From: Mesorhizobium sp. SARCC-RB16n
GTDB lineage: Bacteria; Pseudomonadota; Alphaproteobacteria; Rhizobiales; Rhizobiaceae
NCBI RefSeq assembly: GCF_008520305.1
Contig: NZ_ML703256.1
Location: forward strand, 244,815 to 308,814
Reading direction: 5' to 3'
DNA: 64,000 nt
Shown here: positions 24,456-32,133 of the stretch, piece after piece
Position numbering within the stretch: the first letter of the stretch is position 1
Layout: every line of letters begins with the position of its first letter
Translations under genes and position numbers: made by a program
Notes under the pieces: generated by a model
Database searches by the model: none
Seen by the model: only the letters and a program-made list of their open reading frames with translations
Told to the model about the DNA's origin: nothing

Positions 24456-25574
24456 CTACTGCGTCAGCACGTTGCTGATTTCGACCATGTTGGAGCGTAC
24501 CCGAAGCACGTAAAAGCCCATCGTCGTCAGGTGCGTCGGCAGCAGCCAGCCGTCCTCGCGGCCGTTGGCGATGATGAAGGGCTGGATGCGCAGGGCCGAC
24601 ACGAATTGCGCGTCCATCGTATCCCAAAGGCTCTGCAGGTGCTTTTCCTTGAGGACGTCCTCGAAGTCGGCTTGGGCGCCCTTCATCAGGCCGTAATAGC
24701 CATAGAGCTGGCCATAGGCGAACCAGTAGCGGTCGTCGGCACGGAAGTCGAACCAGCCATTGTTATGGTTTTCGGCGCGTTCCTTGAGGATGGCCGAGGT
24801 CGAACCGATGTCGCTGGCGATGCGATCGATATATTGCTTCAGATTGTCCGCGCGCGCATCGAAAGTCGCCTGGCAGGTGGCGAGGCGAGCGTTGAAAGAG
24901 CGCAGATTGCTCATCGCGCGCCGATACATGCTGGGCGTCGTCGCGGTCATGCCGTTGCGGCTGATATACCAGATGGACTCGTCGTACTGCAGCTGGCCAC
25001 GAGCATCCTGGAGATTGGTATCGATCTGCGAGGTGGTGCGCACACGGCCGAGGTTGTCGGCAAGCTCGGTGGCTGTGCGCCGCACCGCCTGATTGATGCC
25101 GCGCTGGAACGAAGCCTTGTTGTCCATCCATGGCGTGTCGTCCCAGTCGATGCCGAACAGGCCGAGCTTGTAAAGGACCATCGACGAGACCCAGGCGTTC
25201 TGGTTGACGTTGAAATCGATCAGGTCTGCAGCAATCTGGGCGATACCGGAGTTGCCGCAGGTCCTGGCCGTGTCGGTGCCGGCGCCCGCGGCGACCTGCT
25301 CGCCCGCGGAGATGTTGCGCTTTTCGAAGCTGTATGTGTCGGGATAGCTCGGGTTGAAATTGCTCCACCACTGGGTGGCGTAGAAGAAATTGGCGTAAAG
25401 GCCGATAAGCACCAGCAAAGCCAGGCCAACCACCGCCTTCAGGATCCAGCCGCGCTGCGTGTACCAGCGCCCGGCCCACATGAACGGCCACAGGATGACG
25501 CCGATCACAAGGCCGATGCCGCGGCCGATCCACTGGAAAATGCGGGTGAAGAAGTTCACGATCGGATCGAGCAT
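24456..25574 (-). CDS. DUF2333-family membrane protein
   Basis: A 372-residue protein matching DUF2333 by its N-terminus and Trp/Tyr-rich body. Two hydrophobic segments (about 16-36 and 45-66) anchor it in the inner membrane, and the remaining 300 residues, with helical stretches and motifs such as YWFAYGQLYGYYGLMKGA, likely lie in the periplasm. GAGGGGG precedes ATG 25574. It is the last gene of the leftward operon with the AAA+ ATPase and coiled-coil genes, separated from the previous gene by two hairpins. Function unknown; it may anchor the system to the envelope. Confidence 0.8.
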   Translation of the reverse strand: MLDPIVNFFTRIFQWIGRGIGLVIGVILWPFMWAGRWYTQRGWILKAVVGLALLVLIGLYANFFYATQWWSNFNPSYPDTYSFEKRNISAGEQVAAGAGTDTARTCGNSGIAQIAADLIDFNVNQNAWVSSMVLYKLGLFGIDWDDTPWMDNKASFQRGINQAVRRTATELADNLGRVRTTSQIDTNLQDARGQLQYDESIWYISRNGMTATTPSMYRRAMSNLRSFNARLATCQATFDARADNLKQYIDRIASDIGSTSAILKERAENHNNGWFDFRADDRYWFAYGQLYGYYGLMKGAQADFEDVLKEKHLQSLWDTMDAQFVSALRIQPFIIANGREDGWLLPTHLTTMGFYVLRVRSNMVEISNVLTQ

Positions 25575-25593
25575 GGCGATGTCACCCCCTCAA

Positions 25594-25634
25594 CATGATG
25601 CCAAAAAGTTGCGGACTTTTTGGATAACATCATG
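25594..25634. repeat. Palindromic repeat before the DUF2333 gene
   Basis: CATGATG/CATCATG outer arms and CCAAAAAGT/ACTTTTTGG inner arms pair, with a four-base bulge (ATAA), to form a long hairpin. It resembles palindromes found between genes elsewhere in this window (for example 54628-54674). It may reduce expression of DUF2333 relative to upstream genes. Confidence 0.65.
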
Positions 25635-25650
25635 CACCAAAACAACAAAT

Positions 25651-25680
25651 TAGAACGGAATGACGGTTCATTTCGTTCTA
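25651..25680. repeat. Hairpin overlapping the stop of the DUF6638-like gene
   Basis: TAGAACGGAATGA (25651-25663) pairs with TCATTTCGTTCTA (25668-25680), 13 positions with a single G-T pair and a four-base loop. Its outer edge contains the TAG stop of the upstream gene. Confidence 0.6.
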
Positions 25681-26979
25681 GTCGGTCAGGCCATAGAGGC
25701 GTGTGCGAAACGCCACCTTGTCCTTCAGATATGTGGTTTTCAGAACGTCCACAACATGCGATCGCCAGGCGTCGCTGAAGCCGTCATAGTCCTTGTAGAA
25801 GCCGTCCTTGTTGAAGATGTAGCGCGAGACGAAGTCCGACGGCACGAAATCCGAGATCAGCCGGTTGGTCAGCCAGGCGTCGGGATGATCCGGCCTGGCG
25901 CGTATCACCAGGAAGCGCTGCCGCGGCAAGACATCCTCGATCTTGAGGTGGCCGAGCTGGGCGATCTCGCGCTTGGCGGCGTTGAGGAAGGGGAAATTGC
26001 CGTCCTTCGTAATCAGGTCGGCATGGCTCTGGATCCAGGTCTGCAGCCAGACCTTGTCGACATCGGTCAAATTGCGGTTCGGCTCTGCGTCGCGGATCAG
26101 CGCGCGCACCACCATTTCGGCGCGGTGCTCGAGATAGCCAGAGGCCTCGATCCAGGAGGCGCGCGGCAGTTCGATGCGGCCGGTGGCGGCCAGGAATTTG
26201 AACACCTTGTCGGCGTCCTTGATCGAGAGATAGCTCACCTGCCAGGGTCGCGAGCGGCGGAAGCCGGGGGCGGCCGGATCGCTGATCACCGTCGTCATGT
26301 CGGGATCGACGAACACGTAGAGCCCGCCGAAATGGCTGGTCCAGTAGGCGTTGTGACGGAAGATCACCTGGTCCGGCACCAGCGCGTTCTCGCGGATATC
26401 GCCGCAGACCTTGGCGAGCTCGACCATGCGGGTCAGCATGGCATTGTCGCGCCAGGCGTCAGGCTCCTGCTTCAGGCGGTCGACGAGCTTGCCGAGTTCA
26501 GCGGCCTTGCCCAGCACGTCCTCCGCCGACAGCACCTTGAACTCGACCTGGCTGATCGACAGCAGGTCCTCGATGTCGTTGACCTTGGGAACGGAGTCCT
26601 CGATCTCGCCGTAGATGACGTCCTTGATGGTCAGCGCGTCGATGGCGCGCTGGTTCCTGGTCATGAACTCGAACATAAGCTGCGAGGTGTTGGAGAAGGC
26701 GGTGTGCACCACCGGCAGGTCGATCTGCGACGGTGTCAGGATGATGAAACGGCGGTTGACCTCGTTGGGATCGAGATAGTCGTAGTCGCCACACTCCTCG
26801 GCCACTTCGGGCGAAAAACCGGTACGGTCGATCTGGAAGGTCGTCAGTTTGGTGGGCTTCTTGCCGAAAGCGGCCAGCGCCTTGTTGTAGCGCTGGATGA
26901 GATGCGGCTCATCGATCGTCAGCAGCCGGCCATAGATGAGTTCGTTGTCGCGCAGGAGGTCGGGTTTGCGGGCGGTCAT
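25678..26979 (-). CDS. Conserved protein, tentatively DUF6638 family
   Basis: A 433-residue, mostly soluble protein with no signal peptide or membrane segment. I recall this family accompanying the AAA+ ATPase in rhizobia (tentatively DUF6638), but that is from memory. The start at ATG 26979 (MTARKPDLLRDNELIYG) excludes an upstream reading through the 56-bp repeat that would add low-complexity Pro/Arg/Glu residues. It is part of the leftward AAA+ operon, directly downstream of the DUF559 cassette. Function unknown. Confidence 0.72.
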   Translation of the reverse strand: MTARKPDLLRDNELIYGRLLTIDEPHLIQRYNKALAAFGKKPTKLTTFQIDRTGFSPEVAEECGDYDYLDPNEVNRRFIILTPSQIDLPVVHTAFSNTSQLMFEFMTRNQRAIDALTIKDVIYGEIEDSVPKVNDIEDLLSISQVEFKVLSAEDVLGKAAELGKLVDRLKQEPDAWRDNAMLTRMVELAKVCGDIRENALVPDQVIFRHNAYWTSHFGGLYVFVDPDMTTVISDPAAPGFRRSRPWQVSYLSIKDADKVFKFLAATGRIELPRASWIEASGYLEHRAEMVVRALIRDAEPNRNLTDVDKVWLQTWIQSHADLITKDGNFPFLNAAKREIAQLGHLKIEDVLPRQRFLVIRARPDHPDAWLTNRLISDFVPSDFVSRYIFNKDGFYKDYDGFSDAWRSHVVDVLKTTYLKDKVAFRTRLYGLTD

Positions 26980-27021
26980 GTCGAAGAGTCCGAAGGGTTT
27001 TGCCTGACAAGGCGAAGCGCT

Positions 27022-27077
27022 AACGCTGACGCCCCCCTCTCCCCGTTCTTCACGGGGAGAGGGTAAGGGTGAGGGGC
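27022..27077. repeat. Left copy of 56-bp inverted repeat flanking the DUF559 gene
   Basis: This 56-base unit contains an inner palindrome (CTCTCCCCGT..ACGGGGAGAG). Its reverse complement matches 27511-27566 with about two differences. The two copies face each other around the DUF559 gene, leaving 11 bases between this copy and the gene's stop. Confidence 0.9.
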
Positions 27078-27088
27078 GGCGCTGACGG

Positions 27089-27505
27089 TCAAGAATACGT
27101 CTCCCCATAGCCTTCGGCGGCGAGAAATCGAAGATCATTCGTTTCGACATGGCGATCGAGACGCCGCTCGATAGCCGCCAATATTGTTTCGAGCACCGCG
27201 TCCCGTTCCTTTAATACGTCGACGTTCCAAAAGCGGAGCACAGACCAACCACTTGAAATCATGAATTGATCACGGACCTGATCATATTTGTTGCCTGCGT
27301 GTTGACTCCCGTCCACTTCGACAACCAGGCGGCATTCCCTGCAGGCAAAATCAGCAAAGTAGCTGCCTATCGGAACCTGTCGAACGAATTTGTGGCCATT
27401 TAGTCTGCGGTCGCGCAATTCCATCCAAAGTGCGCCTTCGGCATCATTATCCGATTGCCGCAGACGTCTTGCCCTTTTGGTCGTCGTGATTTCCGGTCCA
27501 CGCAT
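27089..27505 (-). CDS. DUF559 endonuclease-like protein
   Basis: A 138-residue protein of the DUF559 group, whose fold is related to Vsr-type and restriction endonucleases. Visible motifs are MRGPEITTTKRARRLRQSDN, AEGALWMELRDRRLNGHKF, a core acidic segment YFADFACRECRLVVEVDGSQH, and GWSVLRFWNVDVL. The Glu/Asp-x-Asp-Gly block (EVDGSQH) is the likely metal site. The ATG at 27505 is served by GAGGGG that belongs to the flanking repeat. The gene sits between two inverted repeats inside an otherwise colinear operon, so it looks inserted. DNA cleavage activity is inferred. Confidence 0.85.
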   Translation of the reverse strand: MRGPEITTTKRARRLRQSDNDAEGALWMELRDRRLNGHKFVRQVPIGSYFADFACRECRLVVEVDGSQHAGNKYDQVRDQFMISSGWSVLRFWNVDVLKERDAVLETILAAIERRLDRHVETNDLRFLAAEGYGETYS

Positions 27506-27510
27506 GCGCT

Positions 27511-27566
27511 GCCCCTCACCCTTACCCTCTCCCCGTGAAGGACGGGGAGAGGGGGGCGTCAGCGTT
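27511..27566. repeat. Right copy of 56-bp inverted repeat flanking the DUF559 gene
   Basis: Near-perfect inverted partner of 27022-27077. It lies in the gap between the AAA+ ATPase stop and the DUF559 start, and it supplies the latter's Shine-Dalgarno sequence (GAGGGG, 27512-27517). Together the two copies bound about 545 bases. Confidence 0.9.
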
Positions 27567-27606
27567 GGAGCCACACTTTTCAACACCCGCGGGCAACGAA
27601 GGAAAT

Positions 27607-29517
27607 TCACGCATTCCACAGGCCCTTCTTCTTCATCTCCTCCATCTCGCGCGTTGCCCTCTCGCGCAGCCTGGCGTCACGGAGCAGCTTCTCCACCGCC
27701 GCATCATCTGATTTGTCGGAATAGCGGAACTCGGAATCGGCGTAGCGATTGATCTCCTGCATGACCATGTCCATCGAAAACGGGCCGCGCAATTCCTCGA
27801 TCATCGCTTTCTTGTCGTCGTAGCTCTTGTGCATGAAGGCTTCCGGCTTTTCGAACCAATCGTCGGGAAGCTCGATGTCCATGGCGCGCATCTTGATGGC
27901 GTCGGTGACGTTCTTGATGGCGCGGCCGGTGAAGCGCGGTTCGGCGTCCTTGATCAAGTGCAGGTAGGTGCCGATGTCGGCCATGGTCTTGGGCGCGCCA
28001 TTCTCCTTCATGTAGCGCTCATAGACCCGCATCAGCCCGTCCTCTTGCGGCTTTTCATGCTCCTCATAGGCTTCGGTCACGGCGCGCTGGATTTCCTGCG
28101 CGGCGTAGAGTTCGTGCTTGCCCAGAGGGATCTCGTGGTTCTTGCCGGCAAGCAGCACGAAAATGTCGATATAGTCGTCTCGCGTCTGCGGCCCGTCGAC
28201 CAGCCAGCGGGCGCCGGCGCGCTGGCGCAGCGCGTCGTCGACATTCTCGGGATAGTTGGAAAACATGCCGAACGAGCAATTGCCGCGCACCACGGTGGCG
28301 GCACCGGCAAAGGCATCCATCAGGACGCCGGTGATCTCCTGCTGGCCGGCCGAGGCGCGGTCGTCGGAGCGCCGCGCCGCCACCTGGTCGATGTCGTCGA
28401 TGGTGCCGAAGCCGATGACGCGCGGATTCAAGACATTGTTGATGAACTGGCGGCAGTTCTGGCCCGACTTGCCCTGGTAGGAAGAAATCTGGTCGACGCC
28501 GAAATTCTCATAGGCGAAGGGATAGCCGGCGACCTGGCAATAGCCGTTGACGAGGCCGGCGATCATCTGGATCAGCGTCGTCTTGCCGGTACCGGGCGCA
28601 CCGTCGCCGATGAAGGTGAACAGGAAGCCGCCAAGTTCGACGAACGGGTTCAGCTCGCGCTCGAAGTCGTAGGCCATCAGCATCTTGGCGAGCTTGACCG
28701 ACTGGTATTTGGCGATGTGGTTGCCAACGACCTCTTCCGGCGTCTTGAAGGTCATCACCAGCGGCTTCGAGCGCTTGCCCGGCGCGACATCGAAGCCGTC
28801 GAGGGTGAAGTCGTCGGCATCGATGCGGATATGGGCGTTCTCGAACGGGCCGATGCCGTCGAAGCGATCCTTGCGCGCGAGCAGGCCGTCGATGGCGACG
28901 CGGGCAAAGGCGCGGGCGCGGGTCATTAGGTCGGCGTCATCCGAAGCACCGGCAATTGCCTTGTCCAGGCCGGCAAGGATCGACTTCACCGCGTCCTGCG
29001 GCGTGTCGAACAGGAAATCGGGCTCGGGTGTATCGTTGGGCGCCTCGCCATCGCTGTCGATCAGCTGGAAGAGATAGGACGACAGGCTGAAGGCGGAAAT
29101 GTAAGCGGAGGCTGACAGAAGCTTCTTGAAGGTGGCGGCATCGTCGCCTTCGAGCGGGGCGCGGGCGTTGCGCGCCTGCAGGCTTTCGAGGTCGGAGCCT
29201 TCGGCAAAGACATCCGATACGGCCAGCGCAATCGCCGTGCCGCGCCGGGCGCGGAACAGAAGCATGTGCTGCGGGATGGTGAGCAACTGGTCGTCGGGAT
29301 GGACGGCGCCGACGGTCTTCGTCAACTCGACCTCGCGGGTGCGGCGCACTGAGCCGACCGAGACGGTGGAGACGAAGCGGCGGTTGGTGCCGGCCAAGGT
29401 CGTGCCGGATTCCCGCGACGGATCCTCCAGCACGACGATGCGGGTGATAAAACTCTGCGCGGTGGCGCGGTGCTTCTCGATCGCCGCTTCCGGGATGGTG
29501 GTCAGGCCGGTGTCCAT
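27607..29517 (-). CDS. AAA+ ATPase of an uncharacterised operon
   Basis: A 636-residue protein with one AAA+ module. Walker A is GAPGTGKT at 306-313, the Walker B position reads FGTIDDIDQVA (about 370-380, Asp where Glu is usual after the first Asp), a sensor-1-like Asn is in FGMFSNYPENV, and candidate arginine fingers lie in ALRQRAGARW (431-437). The N-terminal 250 residues are unrecognised and the C-terminus is charged and helical. No membrane segment. GGAG precedes ATG 29517. It lies in a leftward operon with coiled-coil, unknown and DUF2333 proteins; remodelling of a membrane-linked complex is a guess. Confidence 0.85.
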   Translation of the reverse strand: MDTGLTTIPEAAIEKHRATAQSFITRIVVLEDPSRESGTTLAGTNRRFVSTVSVGSVRRTREVELTKTVGAVHPDDQLLTIPQHMLLFRARRGTAIALAVSDVFAEGSDLESLQARNARAPLEGDDAATFKKLLSASAYISAFSLSSYLFQLIDSDGEAPNDTPEPDFLFDTPQDAVKSILAGLDKAIAGASDDADLMTRARAFARVAIDGLLARKDRFDGIGPFENAHIRIDADDFTLDGFDVAPGKRSKPLVMTFKTPEEVVGNHIAKYQSVKLAKMLMAYDFERELNPFVELGGFLFTFIGDGAPGTGKTTLIQMIAGLVNGYCQVAGYPFAYENFGVDQISSYQGKSGQNCRQFINNVLNPRVIGFGTIDDIDQVAARRSDDRASAGQQEITGVLMDAFAGAATVVRGNCSFGMFSNYPENVDDALRQRAGARWLVDGPQTRDDYIDIFVLLAGKNHEIPLGKHELYAAQEIQRAVTEAYEEHEKPQEDGLMRVYERYMKENGAPKTMADIGTYLHLIKDAEPRFTGRAIKNVTDAIKMRAMDIELPDDWFEKPEAFMHKSYDDKKAMIEELRGPFSMDMVMQEINRYADSEFRYSDKSDDAAVEKLLRDARLRERATREMEEMKKKGLWNA

Positions 29518-29541
29518 GAAGGATGCTCCGTGGTGTGACGG

Positions 29542-30684
29542 TCAGACGTCCGAGATGACCTGTCCGTTGGACAGGACGTGAACCTTGTAGCCGGCGAATA
29601 TCTTTTGCGCCTCGCCGGCGGCGTAGAGGGCCTGGTAGGCTTCGTGCGGAATGAGCGCGTGATTCTCGTAGCTCGACACGCCCTGTCGCGCGGCTTCCAG
29701 GTCGTCGGTATTGATGAAGAATTCCTCCGACGACGGTTCGCTCGACCACAGGCCCTTGCGACCGGGTTTTTCGCCCTTCGAATAGACCTCCTGGATGGTC
29801 CAGGTCAAAAGCCAGGCGTTTTCGGGCTTGCGCACCTTGGCCAGCACCTCGGCGACAACGGAATTGTTTTCTGTGATGCCTGCCGAATAGAAGGGACCGA
29901 GCACCACGCGGCGCAGCTGCTTGGGGTGAAGGTCGGGGAAATCCTTGTCGACGTTGACGGCGATCGTCGCCGGCGAGAGCGTGTAGGCCGAGTTCTTCTC
30001 GGTGAAATCGTCGAAACGGTGGGCGAGCTCGGGATTGAGCAGGCCGTTGACGGGCAGGGGAATGTCGACCTTGTCGTTCAGTCTGCCATTGTCGACAAGC
30101 TGCCGGATCATGCTTTCCGAGGAATCCTCCACCGTCACCATGTAGACCAGGGGCAGGTTGGCGCTGCCGTCGAAGGTTGCCCAGTGAACGAGGTAGTAGG
30201 GCCGCGCCGTGTTCGGATTGACCGACACCTTGGCGGTCTGCGCCAGTGTGAACGGACCGAAGGTCTGCTCGCTCTTGACGTCCTCGAGATAGAGCCGCTC
30301 GGCCATCGATTTCTGCAGCGCCTCGGGAAACTCCTTGTGGCGCAGGATGAAGTCGGCCATCTCCTCGCGCAGTTCGCCGGCCTGGGGAATGTTGGCGAGC
30401 CGGCTGTCGGCCTGGCGGCGGTCGTTTTCCAGTTCGAGCAGGTTCTGGAACACCGGGTAGCCGCTTTCGGCGCGCGAAATGCGGAACGTGTCCATGAAGC
30501 CCAGCCGGTTGCGCCAGCAGGAAAAGGACTTGTCGAGCCGGGCGATGTATTCGGCAACGATCTTGGCGACGATGCCGTGCCGGTAAAGCGGCGAGCGGTC
30601 GTCGCGCATGAACACTTCGAGGCCGCTGAGCGCGGCCGTGATTGCCGAGAAATACCGCGCCGCCGCGTCGTTTTCGGGGGTCAT
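29542..30684 (-). CDS. Unknown protein of the AAA+ operon
   Basis: A 380-residue soluble-looking protein without signal peptide, membrane helix or recognisable catalytic motif. The N-terminal third is helical and charged (segments such as LLELENDRRQADSRL); the remainder mixes strands and helices (PYYLVHWATFDGSANLPLVY). I chose ATG 30684 (MTPENDAAARYF); an upstream in-frame start would add 14 residues. It is 42 bases after the coiled-coil gene and 24 bases before the ATPase gene, so it is firmly within the operon. Possibly an adaptor or substrate of the ATPase. Confidence 0.72.
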   Translation of the reverse strand: MTPENDAAARYFSAITAALSGLEVFMRDDRSPLYRHGIVAKIVAEYIARLDKSFSCWRNRLGFMDTFRISRAESGYPVFQNLLELENDRRQADSRLANIPQAGELREEMADFILRHKEFPEALQKSMAERLYLEDVKSEQTFGPFTLAQTAKVSVNPNTARPYYLVHWATFDGSANLPLVYMVTVEDSSESMIRQLVDNGRLNDKVDIPLPVNGLLNPELAHRFDDFTEKNSAYTLSPATIAVNVDKDFPDLHPKQLRRVVLGPFYSAGITENNSVVAEVLAKVRKPENAWLLTWTIQEVYSKGEKPGRKGLWSSEPSSEEFFINTDDLEAARQGVSSYENHALIPHEAYQALYAAGEAQKIFAGYKVHVLSNGQVISDV

Positions 30685-30726
30685 GCTGTCAGCCCTGGGA
30701 TTGCCGCACCGGTCCGTGCGGCCCAA

Positions 30727-31815
30727 TTATGACTGCACGTAGTTGGCTGAATTGTGCTTCTTCAGCACCTCGTCGAAACGGCGGGCGAAGGCGTCGTCGG
30801 CCAGCTTCTTGCGGCGCTGGATGTCGGCGCTGGCCACCATGTTCTTCTCGTGCATCTCCAAGAGGTCGCCGATGTGCTTCTGCGAGGCGGCGCCGATGCC
30901 GGCCATGGTTTCCTCGGCCGTGTTGTCGACTTGGCTGCCCAGCGTGTTGATCTTGTGGGCGACGTCCTGCTGCGCGGCGGTCTTCAAGGAATCTTCCAAA
31001 GCCTTGTAGAGCACGATGCGCTGTTCGGTATCGATGGTCAGCTTGTTGATCAGCGTCGACTGGGCGGCGATCTGGTTGTTGAGTGAATCGACGAAGGTCT
31101 GGAACATCGAGGTGTAGCGTTCCAGCGTCTGGCTCTCGGCCAGCAATTCCTGTTCCTTGGCCTGCTTTTCATTGTATTCCGTGGCGAGCTTGGAGCGCTC
31201 GCCTTCGAGCTGCGTGCGGTCCTTCTGGCTGGTCGAGGCGGCGATCTTGTTCTCGATGTCGAGCAGCATCGGATTGAGCTCCTCGATGCGCTTCTGCACG
31301 GTTTCGAGGTTGGTCATGGTGGTCTTGCGGCGTTCGATAACCTGCGACAGGCTGGCCTCGGAGGTCTTGTAGCGCTGGTCGAGAACTTCCTTCTGCGCCT
31401 TCAATATGCCGACGATGGTGTCGGACTTGGCCAGCAGTTCCTGCAAATTGCCGGCGAGCGACATGTTGCGCACGCGGTCGGTGCGCATGCGCTGCTTGCG
31501 CTGCGCCGAAAAAACGCCGACGAAGTTTTCCCAGCCTGTGTAGTTTTTCATGCTCTCGAACTCGGCGCCGAAGACATTGGTGGCGTCCTCGAGGCCGATG
31601 ATCAGGTCGGCGATGTTGCCTTCCATCACCTTCTGCTGCTTCAGCACATCCTCGATGCGGGCGTTCTCGATGTCGAAATTGGCGTCGCCGATCTTCTTGT
31701 CGGCGGTGGCGAGTGTGTCGAGCACCGTGCCGGATTGCTCGATCCTGGTGCGCATGTCCTGCACGACCTGCTTGGTCTTGGCAATTTCGGCATCGAAATT
31801 CTGCAATGTCGCCAT
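30727..31815 (-). CDS. Long coiled-coil protein, first gene of the AAA+ operon
   Basis: A 362-residue protein that is almost entirely charged heptad-type helix (for example segments around residues 130-290, rich in Glu, Lys, Gln and Leu), with no signal peptide or membrane segment. Length and all-helical makeup resemble TelA/toxic-anion-resistance proteins, but I see no decisive motif. The start at ATG 31815 follows GGGAGG; an in-frame ATG at 31836 lies upstream of that site. It leads the operon. A scaffold role for the ATPase is inferred. Confidence 0.75.
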   Translation of the reverse strand: MATLQNFDAEIAKTKQVVQDMRTRIEQSGTVLDTLATADKKIGDANFDIENARIEDVLKQQKVMEGNIADLIIGLEDATNVFGAEFESMKNYTGWENFVGVFSAQRKQRMRTDRVRNMSLAGNLQELLAKSDTIVGILKAQKEVLDQRYKTSEASLSQVIERRKTTMTNLETVQKRIEELNPMLLDIENKIAASTSQKDRTQLEGERSKLATEYNEKQAKEQELLAESQTLERYTSMFQTFVDSLNNQIAAQSTLINKLTIDTEQRIVLYKALEDSLKTAAQQDVAHKINTLGSQVDNTAEETMAGIGAASQKHIGDLLEMHEKNMVASADIQRRKKLADDAFARRFDEVLKKHNSANYVQS

Positions 31816-32133
31816 AAGGGCCTCCCGCTTCGACATCAGGTCGCTGATCGCGAACAGCGGCGAATATATGTGGGGTATCAGGGGATTGAAAGACGTGAAG
31901 ACAAGGACAGCGCGAAAACAAATATCCGGCCGAAACCCTTGAAAGGCAATGCAGCCGTGGTCATGGCGTGATCAATTGGCCGGCCAAGCCTGGTTCAGCT
32001 GATTTTGAACTTTCATGCCGGCAAAGCAATCAGTCCACGCCGAAGCGGATGGCTCTGAAAGCCGACAACAACTGACCATTTGCAGCCCCGACAGGGTGCG
32101 CAAACTGGCTGTCTTTCGACGAACGGCGTCTGC
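31816..32133. other. 318-base gene-free region upstream of the AAA+ operon
   Basis: No gene is supported here. Reading leftward, TTGTCT (31904-31899) and CTGATA (31881-31876), 17 bases apart, are a plausible promoter for the operon with a leader of about 55-60 bases. A 12-base perfect palindrome TTGGCCGGCCAA sits at 31976-31987 and could be an operator. The remainder is the 3' flank of the cytochrome c gene. Confidence 0.4.

Follow-up and report, generated by a model that had tools for sequence, protein, structure and literature searches.

A conserved four-gene AAA ATPase module of alphaproteobacteria and its possible role in remodelling a coiled-coil scaffold

We analyzed a window of 64,000 nucleotides from Mesorhizobium sp. 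SARCC-RB16n (contig NZ_ML703256.1, positions 244,815 to 308,814), which contains an operon of six co-oriented minus-strand genes within positions 24456-31836 (open reading frame (ORF) list and Pfam). Four of them, encoding a helical/coiled-coil protein (CC), a protein without family (UNK), a AAA ATPase (AAA) and a DUF6638 protein, form a core that is found in the same order and on the same strand in 89/89 loci fetched as long regions. Next to this core lies a gene for a membrane protein, DUF2333 in the window and DUF1523 in most other loci. We tentatively propose that the operon encodes one ATP-driven machine, which may remodel a membrane-anchored coiled-coil scaffold on the cytoplasmic side of the inner membrane; we give this reading a little less than an even chance. 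The observations behind it are conservation, gene order, alternation of the membrane partner, intact ATPase and pore motifs, a CC-DUF2333 pair without AAA and a correlated loss within CC.

The four-gene core and its membrane partners

The DUF6638 family was searched in whole genomes, which gave 124 different positive genomes over three samples: 26 of 398 Pseudomonadota, 88 of 148 genomes of one alphaproteobacterial order and 27 of 150 genomes of another (the labels Rhodobacterales and Hyphomicrobiales for these orders are deduced from the genes present and from relatives that have names). The 89 long regions come from these genomes and were picked by DUF6638 alone, not by AAA, and the recurrence of the four-gene order in every one of them is far beyond chance. 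An earlier note on this DNA had proposed one uncharacterized unit with an envelope end and had named a lack of co-conservation as a finding that would speak against it; we find the four genes colinear throughout, and DUF2333 linked to them in three arrangements. In a plasmid collection, AAA, DUF6638 and UNK all match one set of 10 records, six from Rhizobiaceae and four from Vibrio, and CC matches this set and one further record; two Vibrio records that we read carry the same four genes in the same order. A genome scan with AAA gave at least 540 relatives, 80 of them listed. Thymidine kinase lies upstream of the module in 72/80, and formate-tetrahydrofolate ligase downstream in 72/74, of the DUF2333-type loci with enough flank. 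These flanks mark an old chromosomal site and not a mobile island.

The module is thus widespread in two alphaproteobacterial orders, yet no paper naming DUF6638 was found in the literature searched. DUF2333 is mentioned, in the available part of one paper, as the neighbor of a type VI secretion system hcp gene (PMC5256989), and the matches for DUF1523 are papers unrelated by title. As far as the available text of these sources goes, this agrees with the statement of the earlier note that the set has no assigned function. Two Pfam families of uncharacterized proteins, DUF6638 and DUF2333, gain a common context here.

The features of the operon in the window are the following.

24456..25574, minus strand: DUF2333 inner-membrane protein, 372 amino acids (Pfam E = 5.6e-22), proposed anchor or receptor of CC
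25678..26979, minus strand: DUF6638 protein, 433 amino acids (Pfam E = 1.7e-71)
27031..27077, minus strand: type I palindrome, inverted copy on the 3' side of DUF559
27089..27505, minus strand: gene for a DUF559 nuclease-like protein, the sixth in the operon (Pfam E = 4.8e-38)
27511..27557, minus strand: type I palindrome, the copy on the 5' side of DUF559 in the inverted pair
27607..29517, minus strand: AAA, a classical AAA ATPase, 636 amino acids (Pfam E = 5.1e-11)
28471..28479, minus strand: aromatic pore-loop-like Y347-Q348-G349 of AAA (YQGKS.Q in 174/175 homologues)
28579..28608, minus strand: Walker A GDGAPGTGKT of AAA, residues 304-313 (present in 175/175 homologues)
29542..30684, minus strand: UNK, 380 amino acids, proposed adaptor
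30727..31815, minus strand: CC, 362 amino acids, a helical/coiled-coil protein that belongs to no family; proposed to be a scaffold beneath the membrane and the client of AAA
30934..30999, minus strand: CC segment, residues 273-294, predicted docking segment for AAA, UNK or DUF6638

All five colinear genes of the earlier note are present on the minus strand at these coordinates; the DUF559 gene, the sixth, and the alternation of the membrane partner had been overlooked. CC is counted from a conserved start, and its ORF can be extended to 31836. The short gaps claimed between the genes hold for three junctions (CC-UNK, 42 base pairs (bp); UNK-AAA, 24 bp; DUF6638-DUF2333, 103 bp) but not for AAA-DUF6638, where 627 bp contain the DUF559 gene between its inverted palindrome copies. 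Profile searches, which the note had suggested, matched three of the proteins well above their Pfam gathering cut-offs (DUF6638, PF20343, 241.8 bits versus 27; DUF2333, PF10095, 78.6 versus 22; AAA, PF00004, 43.6 versus 21.2), but gave no family above cut-off for UNK or CC. Sequence and fold comparisons showed no significant match to PspA, TelA or known defense systems. The window copy of UNK has no match at E ≤ 1 in Pfam, NCBIfam, PADLOC or PHROG and no PDB fold match at E ≤ 0.001. The predicted structure of DUF6638 has a helical C-terminal part from residue 251 (predicted local distance difference test (pLDDT) 80-95 per ten-residue block). A hydrophobic-segment scan located two segments in the DUF2333 protein (residues 16-34 and 43-61) and none in the other five operon proteins.

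DUF2333 is not a universal member: in 72/89 fetched loci DUF1523 is found instead, at most 316 bp downstream of DUF6638, DUF2333 accompanies the core in the other 17/89, and none of the 89 lacks both. Two Vibrio copies have neither. Over all 176 loci used, 98 are of the DUF2333 type, 72 are of the DUF1523 type (69 of them with an additional 2-TM protein) and six have neither gene (three cut at contig ends, two from Vibrio and one from a Rhizobium leguminosarum plasmid). DUF1523 and DUF2333 occur together in none of the 176, and the DUF1523, DUF2333 and 2-TM families show no convincing relation to one another. The distance between DUF2333 and DUF6638 is less than 500 bp in 95 of the 98 DUF2333-type loci. 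DUF2333 lies downstream of DUF6638 in Hyphomicrobiales, upstream of CC on a virus-classified contig, and with CC alone in four loci; among 398 Pseudomonadota genomes 98 carry it, 11 of them together with DUF6638. We tie DUF2333 to the module because it lies near DUF6638, occurs on the viral contig with the core and stands beside CC when AAA is absent.

The virus-classified contig is a 359-kb IMG/VR entry (L355) with DUF2333 (E = 7.7e-91), CC, UNK, AAA (these three by profile) and DUF6638 (E = 5.9e-100) in a row, DUF2333 being at the opposite end of the module compared with the Mesorhizobium order. Its neighbors are SmpB, a DnaJ-like gene, a member of a family of DNA polymerase exonuclease subunits and, by a weak match, a spanin-like gene, and no capsid or terminase match was found among ten proteins searched in the ∼19 kb read. 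Calling this contig a phage relies on the label of the collection and on the neighboring genes.

ATPase motifs and the coiled-coil segment 273-294

The core of AAA (residues 287-435) aligns with an i-AAA protease and a VCP-like ATPase over the Walker A/B, pore-loop and sensor regions. Among 175 homologues, Walker A is present in 175, the pore-loop pattern Y-Q-G-K-S in 174, Walker B in 174 and the sensor-1/Arg-finger pattern in 163. We take the YQG motif to be the pore loop, and an aromatic pore loop implies protein threading. The earlier note's 'non-standard' AAA+ ATPase holds on one point, a Walker B with DD rather than DE in 174/175 homologues; the protein is a classical AAA. No protease was found in the operon, and remodelling would therefore be favored over degradation. 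The window AAA is 97% identical to the AAAs of M. qingshengii, M. huakuii and other Mesorhizobium.

A second line of evidence comes from loci in which DUF2333 occurs with no DUF6638 nearby. We collected 23 of these (20 genome loci, L357 and L358 from plasmid DUF2333 hits, and L356). A close DUF2333 (>600 bits) is found in 4/23, and in 4/4 of these a CC homologue lies directly upstream (E from 2e-20 to 6e-51), with no AAA, UNK or DUF6638 nearby; L356 was fetched because of its CC match, the other three by DUF2333 alone. The remaining 19/23, with a distant DUF2333 (<235 bits), have none of the four core genes nearby. On R. leguminosarum pSK03 the CC-DUF2333 pair occupies the same address, from thymidine kinase to, further on, formate-tetrahydrofolate ligase.

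The CCs of the four AAA-less loci differ from those of complete modules in one defined stretch. In three of them residues 273-294 have been deleted, and the fourth has a different sequence in their place; gaps fill 80/120 cells of alignment columns 271-300, versus 0/5250 in the 175 CCs of AAA-bearing loci. The same four proteins have no gap in columns 241-270 or 331-360. Among the AAA-bearing CCs, 15 positions of columns 271-300 are conserved at ≥95%, compared with 19 in columns 241-270, so that this is one of several most conserved stretches and not the top one. Loss of residues 273-294 where AAA is absent is as expected if the segment binds the ATPase or its adaptors, and from the alignment we predict it to be the docking segment for one of these.

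A possible scaffold remodeller and its rivals

In the mechanism that we propose, DUF2333 would sit in the membrane and recruit CC, a long helical protein that may assemble into a scaffold; in other alphaproteobacteria the neighbor of the module is, in its stead, the membrane pair of 2-TM protein and DUF1523. An AAA ring with a threading pore would then engage CC through residues 273-294 and their neighbors, with UNK and DUF6638 as putative adaptors, and would extract CC subunits; the scaffold would thereby come apart or be rearranged when the envelope enters a certain state. Genes found in the AAA-DUF6638 gap (in Hyphomicrobiales the DUF559 nuclease, in the DUF1523 lineage predominantly genes for small membrane proteins) could optionally serve as accessory or regulated partners outside the core. 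We infer the contacts among the operon proteins, and with the envelope, from gene context.

Bacterial operons combining PspA/Snf7 proteins with a classical AAA+ ATPase have been described, according to the available part of the report (PMC11237479). The present operon resembles these and ESCRT-III/Vps4 in placing a helical protein beside a classical AAA with intact threading motifs and membrane proteins, and may be alike in principle to ESCRT-III/Vps4 or to PspA with its cognate AAA; we claim membership in neither. A comparison of CC with 26 PspA rows gave no significant similarity (hhalign E = 0.51), and neither Snf7 nor PspA is among the 25 families listed of 54 weak Pfam families for CC members. 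In contrast to Vps4, the operon AAA has no MIT match at sequence level (none among 10 families at E ≤ 0.1, 41 AAA members scanned). We know of no counterparts of UNK and DUF6638 in ESCRT-III/Vps4 or PspA/Snf7 operons. VCP-like ATPases, i-AAA proteases and proteasomal Rpt proteins align with the AAA core (residues 287-435) but differ in that the operon AAA has an unmatched N-terminal region, a DD Walker B and no protease domain. The core proteins do not match a named PADLOC anti-phage system: AAA gives weak matches to IetA and TRIP13, the best with E = 4.4e-4, and the hits of CC have E ≥ 0.32.

If the proposed mechanism is right, bacteria would have in this operon a further system akin to ESCRT/Psp-type membrane remodelling, with CC 273-294 as a precise docking segment. 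A more far-reaching version, which we regard as doubtful, holds that AAA, UNK and DUF6638 acting on CC with DUF2333 or DUF1523 form an undescribed bacterial scaffold remodeller of an origin independent of PspA/ESCRT-III, common to alphaproteobacteria, to megaplasmids of Vibrio and to a giant phage, and carrying in one lineage a resident nuclease between palindromes that resembles a repetitive extragenic palindrome (REP) element free of its RAYT gene.

Several findings weigh against scaffold remodelling. DUF1523 is found in 142/148 genomes of the first order, that is, in 88/88 with the core and in 54/60 without it. None of 20/20 core-less DUF1523 loci examined has CC or any other core gene within 5 kb, and the 2-TM protein still stands beside DUF1523 in 16/20 of them (L383-L399 and similar). 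Since DUF1523 and the 2-TM protein persist without the core, their adjacency to it need not mean a dedicated partnership, and the module adjoins neither membrane gene in the two copies from Vibrio or in one from a Rhizobium plasmid. CC, UNK and DUF6638 have no significant sequence or fold relation to known remodelling systems, and the predicted models of UNK and DUF6638 are moderately confident (mean pLDDT 66 and 75, respectively). Three of the four AAA-less CCs are mutually 84-89% identical (the fourth is 25-31% identical to them), and the loss of residues 273-294 therefore represents at most two events. These CCs are gapped in columns 1-90 and 181-240 as well, partly because one was trimmed to a late Met.

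Two main rivals to remodelling have to be considered. The operon may serve one particular envelope complex as its chaperone or assembly factor, building or recycling it, with CC as an adaptor rather than a polymer. The operon has just one classical AAA, which carries threading motifs and lacks a protease partner; this would suit such a role, as would two large helper proteins without a catalytic family, and the patchy distribution (88/148 and 27/150 genomes) fits a client limited to some species. CC is, however, kept with DUF2333 where AAA is missing, which would be surprising if it were no more than an adaptor for the ATPase, and we consider a chaperone unlikely.

The second rival, an immune or conflict system in which an AAA-CC core senses invasion or membrane stress and licenses an exchangeable effector in the gap, appears quite unlikely to us. 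It draws on the gap guests, which include DUF559, Fic (E = 2.5e-18), PIN/VapC, AbiJ_NTD4 (E = 3.7e-10), DUF3825 and HicB and PhdYefM antitoxins. The Fic guest matches the PADLOC candidate PDC-S04 (E = 5.2e-27), and a P-loop guest in L048 matches the candidate PDC-M28C (3.9e-5). All family-identified guests are on the operon strand except those of L084 (HicB-like) and L062 (PLD-like), the operon DUF559 copies form a single clade (96/95) under purifying selection, and the module is present on the virus-classified contig. Yet the window core gives nothing in PADLOC apart from weak AAA hits and chance-level coiled-coil hits, and it is located at a fixed chromosomal address, not in a defense island. 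The AAA-DUF6638 gap is ≤300 bp in 58/98 DUF2333-type loci, which leaves scant room for an effector, and in the DUF1523 lineage gap ORFs with at least two hydrophobic segments, found in 41/56 loci, correspond to no known toxin.

A toxic-anion (TelA-like) stress system is very improbable: CC is similar to TelA (PF05816) in size and helical character and hhalign pairs CC 85-141 with TelA 108-152 (E = 0.055), but the window CC has no PF05816 match at E ≤ 1, the profile comparison is not significant, a broader TelA set (21 rows) gives a weaker best match elsewhere (E = 0.12), 12/16 module genomes have a separate TelA gene, and TelA is present in 146/148 genomes of one order irrespective of the module, so that the earlier note's hint at metal-oxyanion stress is not sustained. 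That the genes are chance or selfish neighbors, kept together for regulatory reasons and acting apart, is scarcely credible; both types of membrane gene do occur elsewhere without the core, but the same four genes in the same order are found in 89/89 loci, in two Vibrio records and on the virus-classified contig.

Guest genes in the gaps and the DUF559 palindromes

The AAA-DUF6638 junction exceeds 300 bp in 40/98 DUF2333-type and 57/72 DUF1523-type loci, UNK-AAA in 9/97 and 6/72, and CC-UNK in 3/97 and 22/72, respectively; DUF6638-DUF2333 does so in 3/98 loci. The AAA-DUF6638 junction thus tolerates or recruits extra genes, some of them of conflict type. Guests checked by Pfam comprise DUF559, Fic, PIN, PhdYefM antitoxin, HicB antitoxin, AbiJ_NTD4, DUF3825, cold-shock/P-loop and PLD-like genes; a DUF4145 match falls below its Pfam cut-off. 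In the DUF1523 lineage, the largest cluster of gap ORFs is found in 33 loci, with three to four hydrophobic segments in 22/34 ORF ends, and of the 56 loci that have a gap ORF on the same strand, 41 show at least two hydrophobic segments in such an ORF.

Individual guests recur at particular places. A Fic-like gene lies on the operon strand in the UNK-AAA gap of L007, L012, L015, L041, L043, L055 and L060; the assignment was made by Pfam for L012 only, and the catalytic-loop motif of the L055 gene looks degenerate. VapC-like genes take the place held elsewhere by DUF559, in the AAA-DUF6638 gap of L058, L060, L061, L066 and L077, with a PhdYefM-like partner beside them in at least L060, L061 and L066 (by Pfam in L061 and L066). 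In the DUF1523 lineage the same gap holds AbiJ_NTD4 in L116, DUF3825 in L117, and related DUF4145-like genes (below cut-off), presumably HEPN-like, in L119, L120 and L127. The small gap proteins of L114 and L118 have no Pfam family.

The DUF559 gene is the guest in the window operon. All 39 DUF559 rows of at least 50 bits in L001-L127 and the window lie inside this operon, at least three of them duplicating the sequence of another row. Exact inverted repeats of ≥20 bp are present in the 200-bp flanks of 31/39 copies, compared with a control maximum of 15 bp over 200 placements. Palindrome-bracketed DUF559 genes are seen in the window (27031-27557) and in loci L008-L126 and L140-L169. There are two palindrome types, which divide along with two clades of DUF559; a few flanks are unclassified. 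In a tree, 38 operon copies fall on one side of one branch and 24 copies from elsewhere (11 genomes) on the other, with support 96/95 and 97% of 200 bootstrap trees, a bootstrap that had not settled, some branches being long. The median ratios of nonsynonymous to synonymous substitution rates (dN/dS) are 0.086 for DUF559 and 0.068 for AAA (60 pairs), indicating purifying selection, and DUF559 and AAA distances are correlated (r = 0.39, 0/2000 permutations as high, 32 loci). From these comparisons the operon DUF559 copies look vertically kept.

DUF559 copies elsewhere in the 11 genomes carry exact inverted repeats of ≥16 bp, up to 66 bp, in 10/26 cases, with other palindromes; the remaining 16/26 have no such repeats. 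In 10/11 genomes the palindrome core is present in 3-105 copies each, with 0 for the reversed control. We read the operon DUF559 as an old resident that probably belongs to a wider family of DUF559 genes with palindromes. Literature matches for DUF559 with palindromes were unrelated, and DUF559 papers, judged by title, do not treat the topic. The arrangement resembles REP/RAYT elements in that the gene lies between inverted copies of one palindrome, the core of which is repeated genome-wide, and in that palindrome type follows gene clade. RAYT is a tyrosine transposase, whereas the gene here is DUF559 nuclease-like (E = 4.8e-38) and its operon copies appear to be inherited vertically. In two Vibrio megaplasmids (L001 and L002; 882 and 925 kb), the module lies within stretches of low G+C content (0.37), and a gene annotated mfd (transcription-repair coupling factor) directly follows it.

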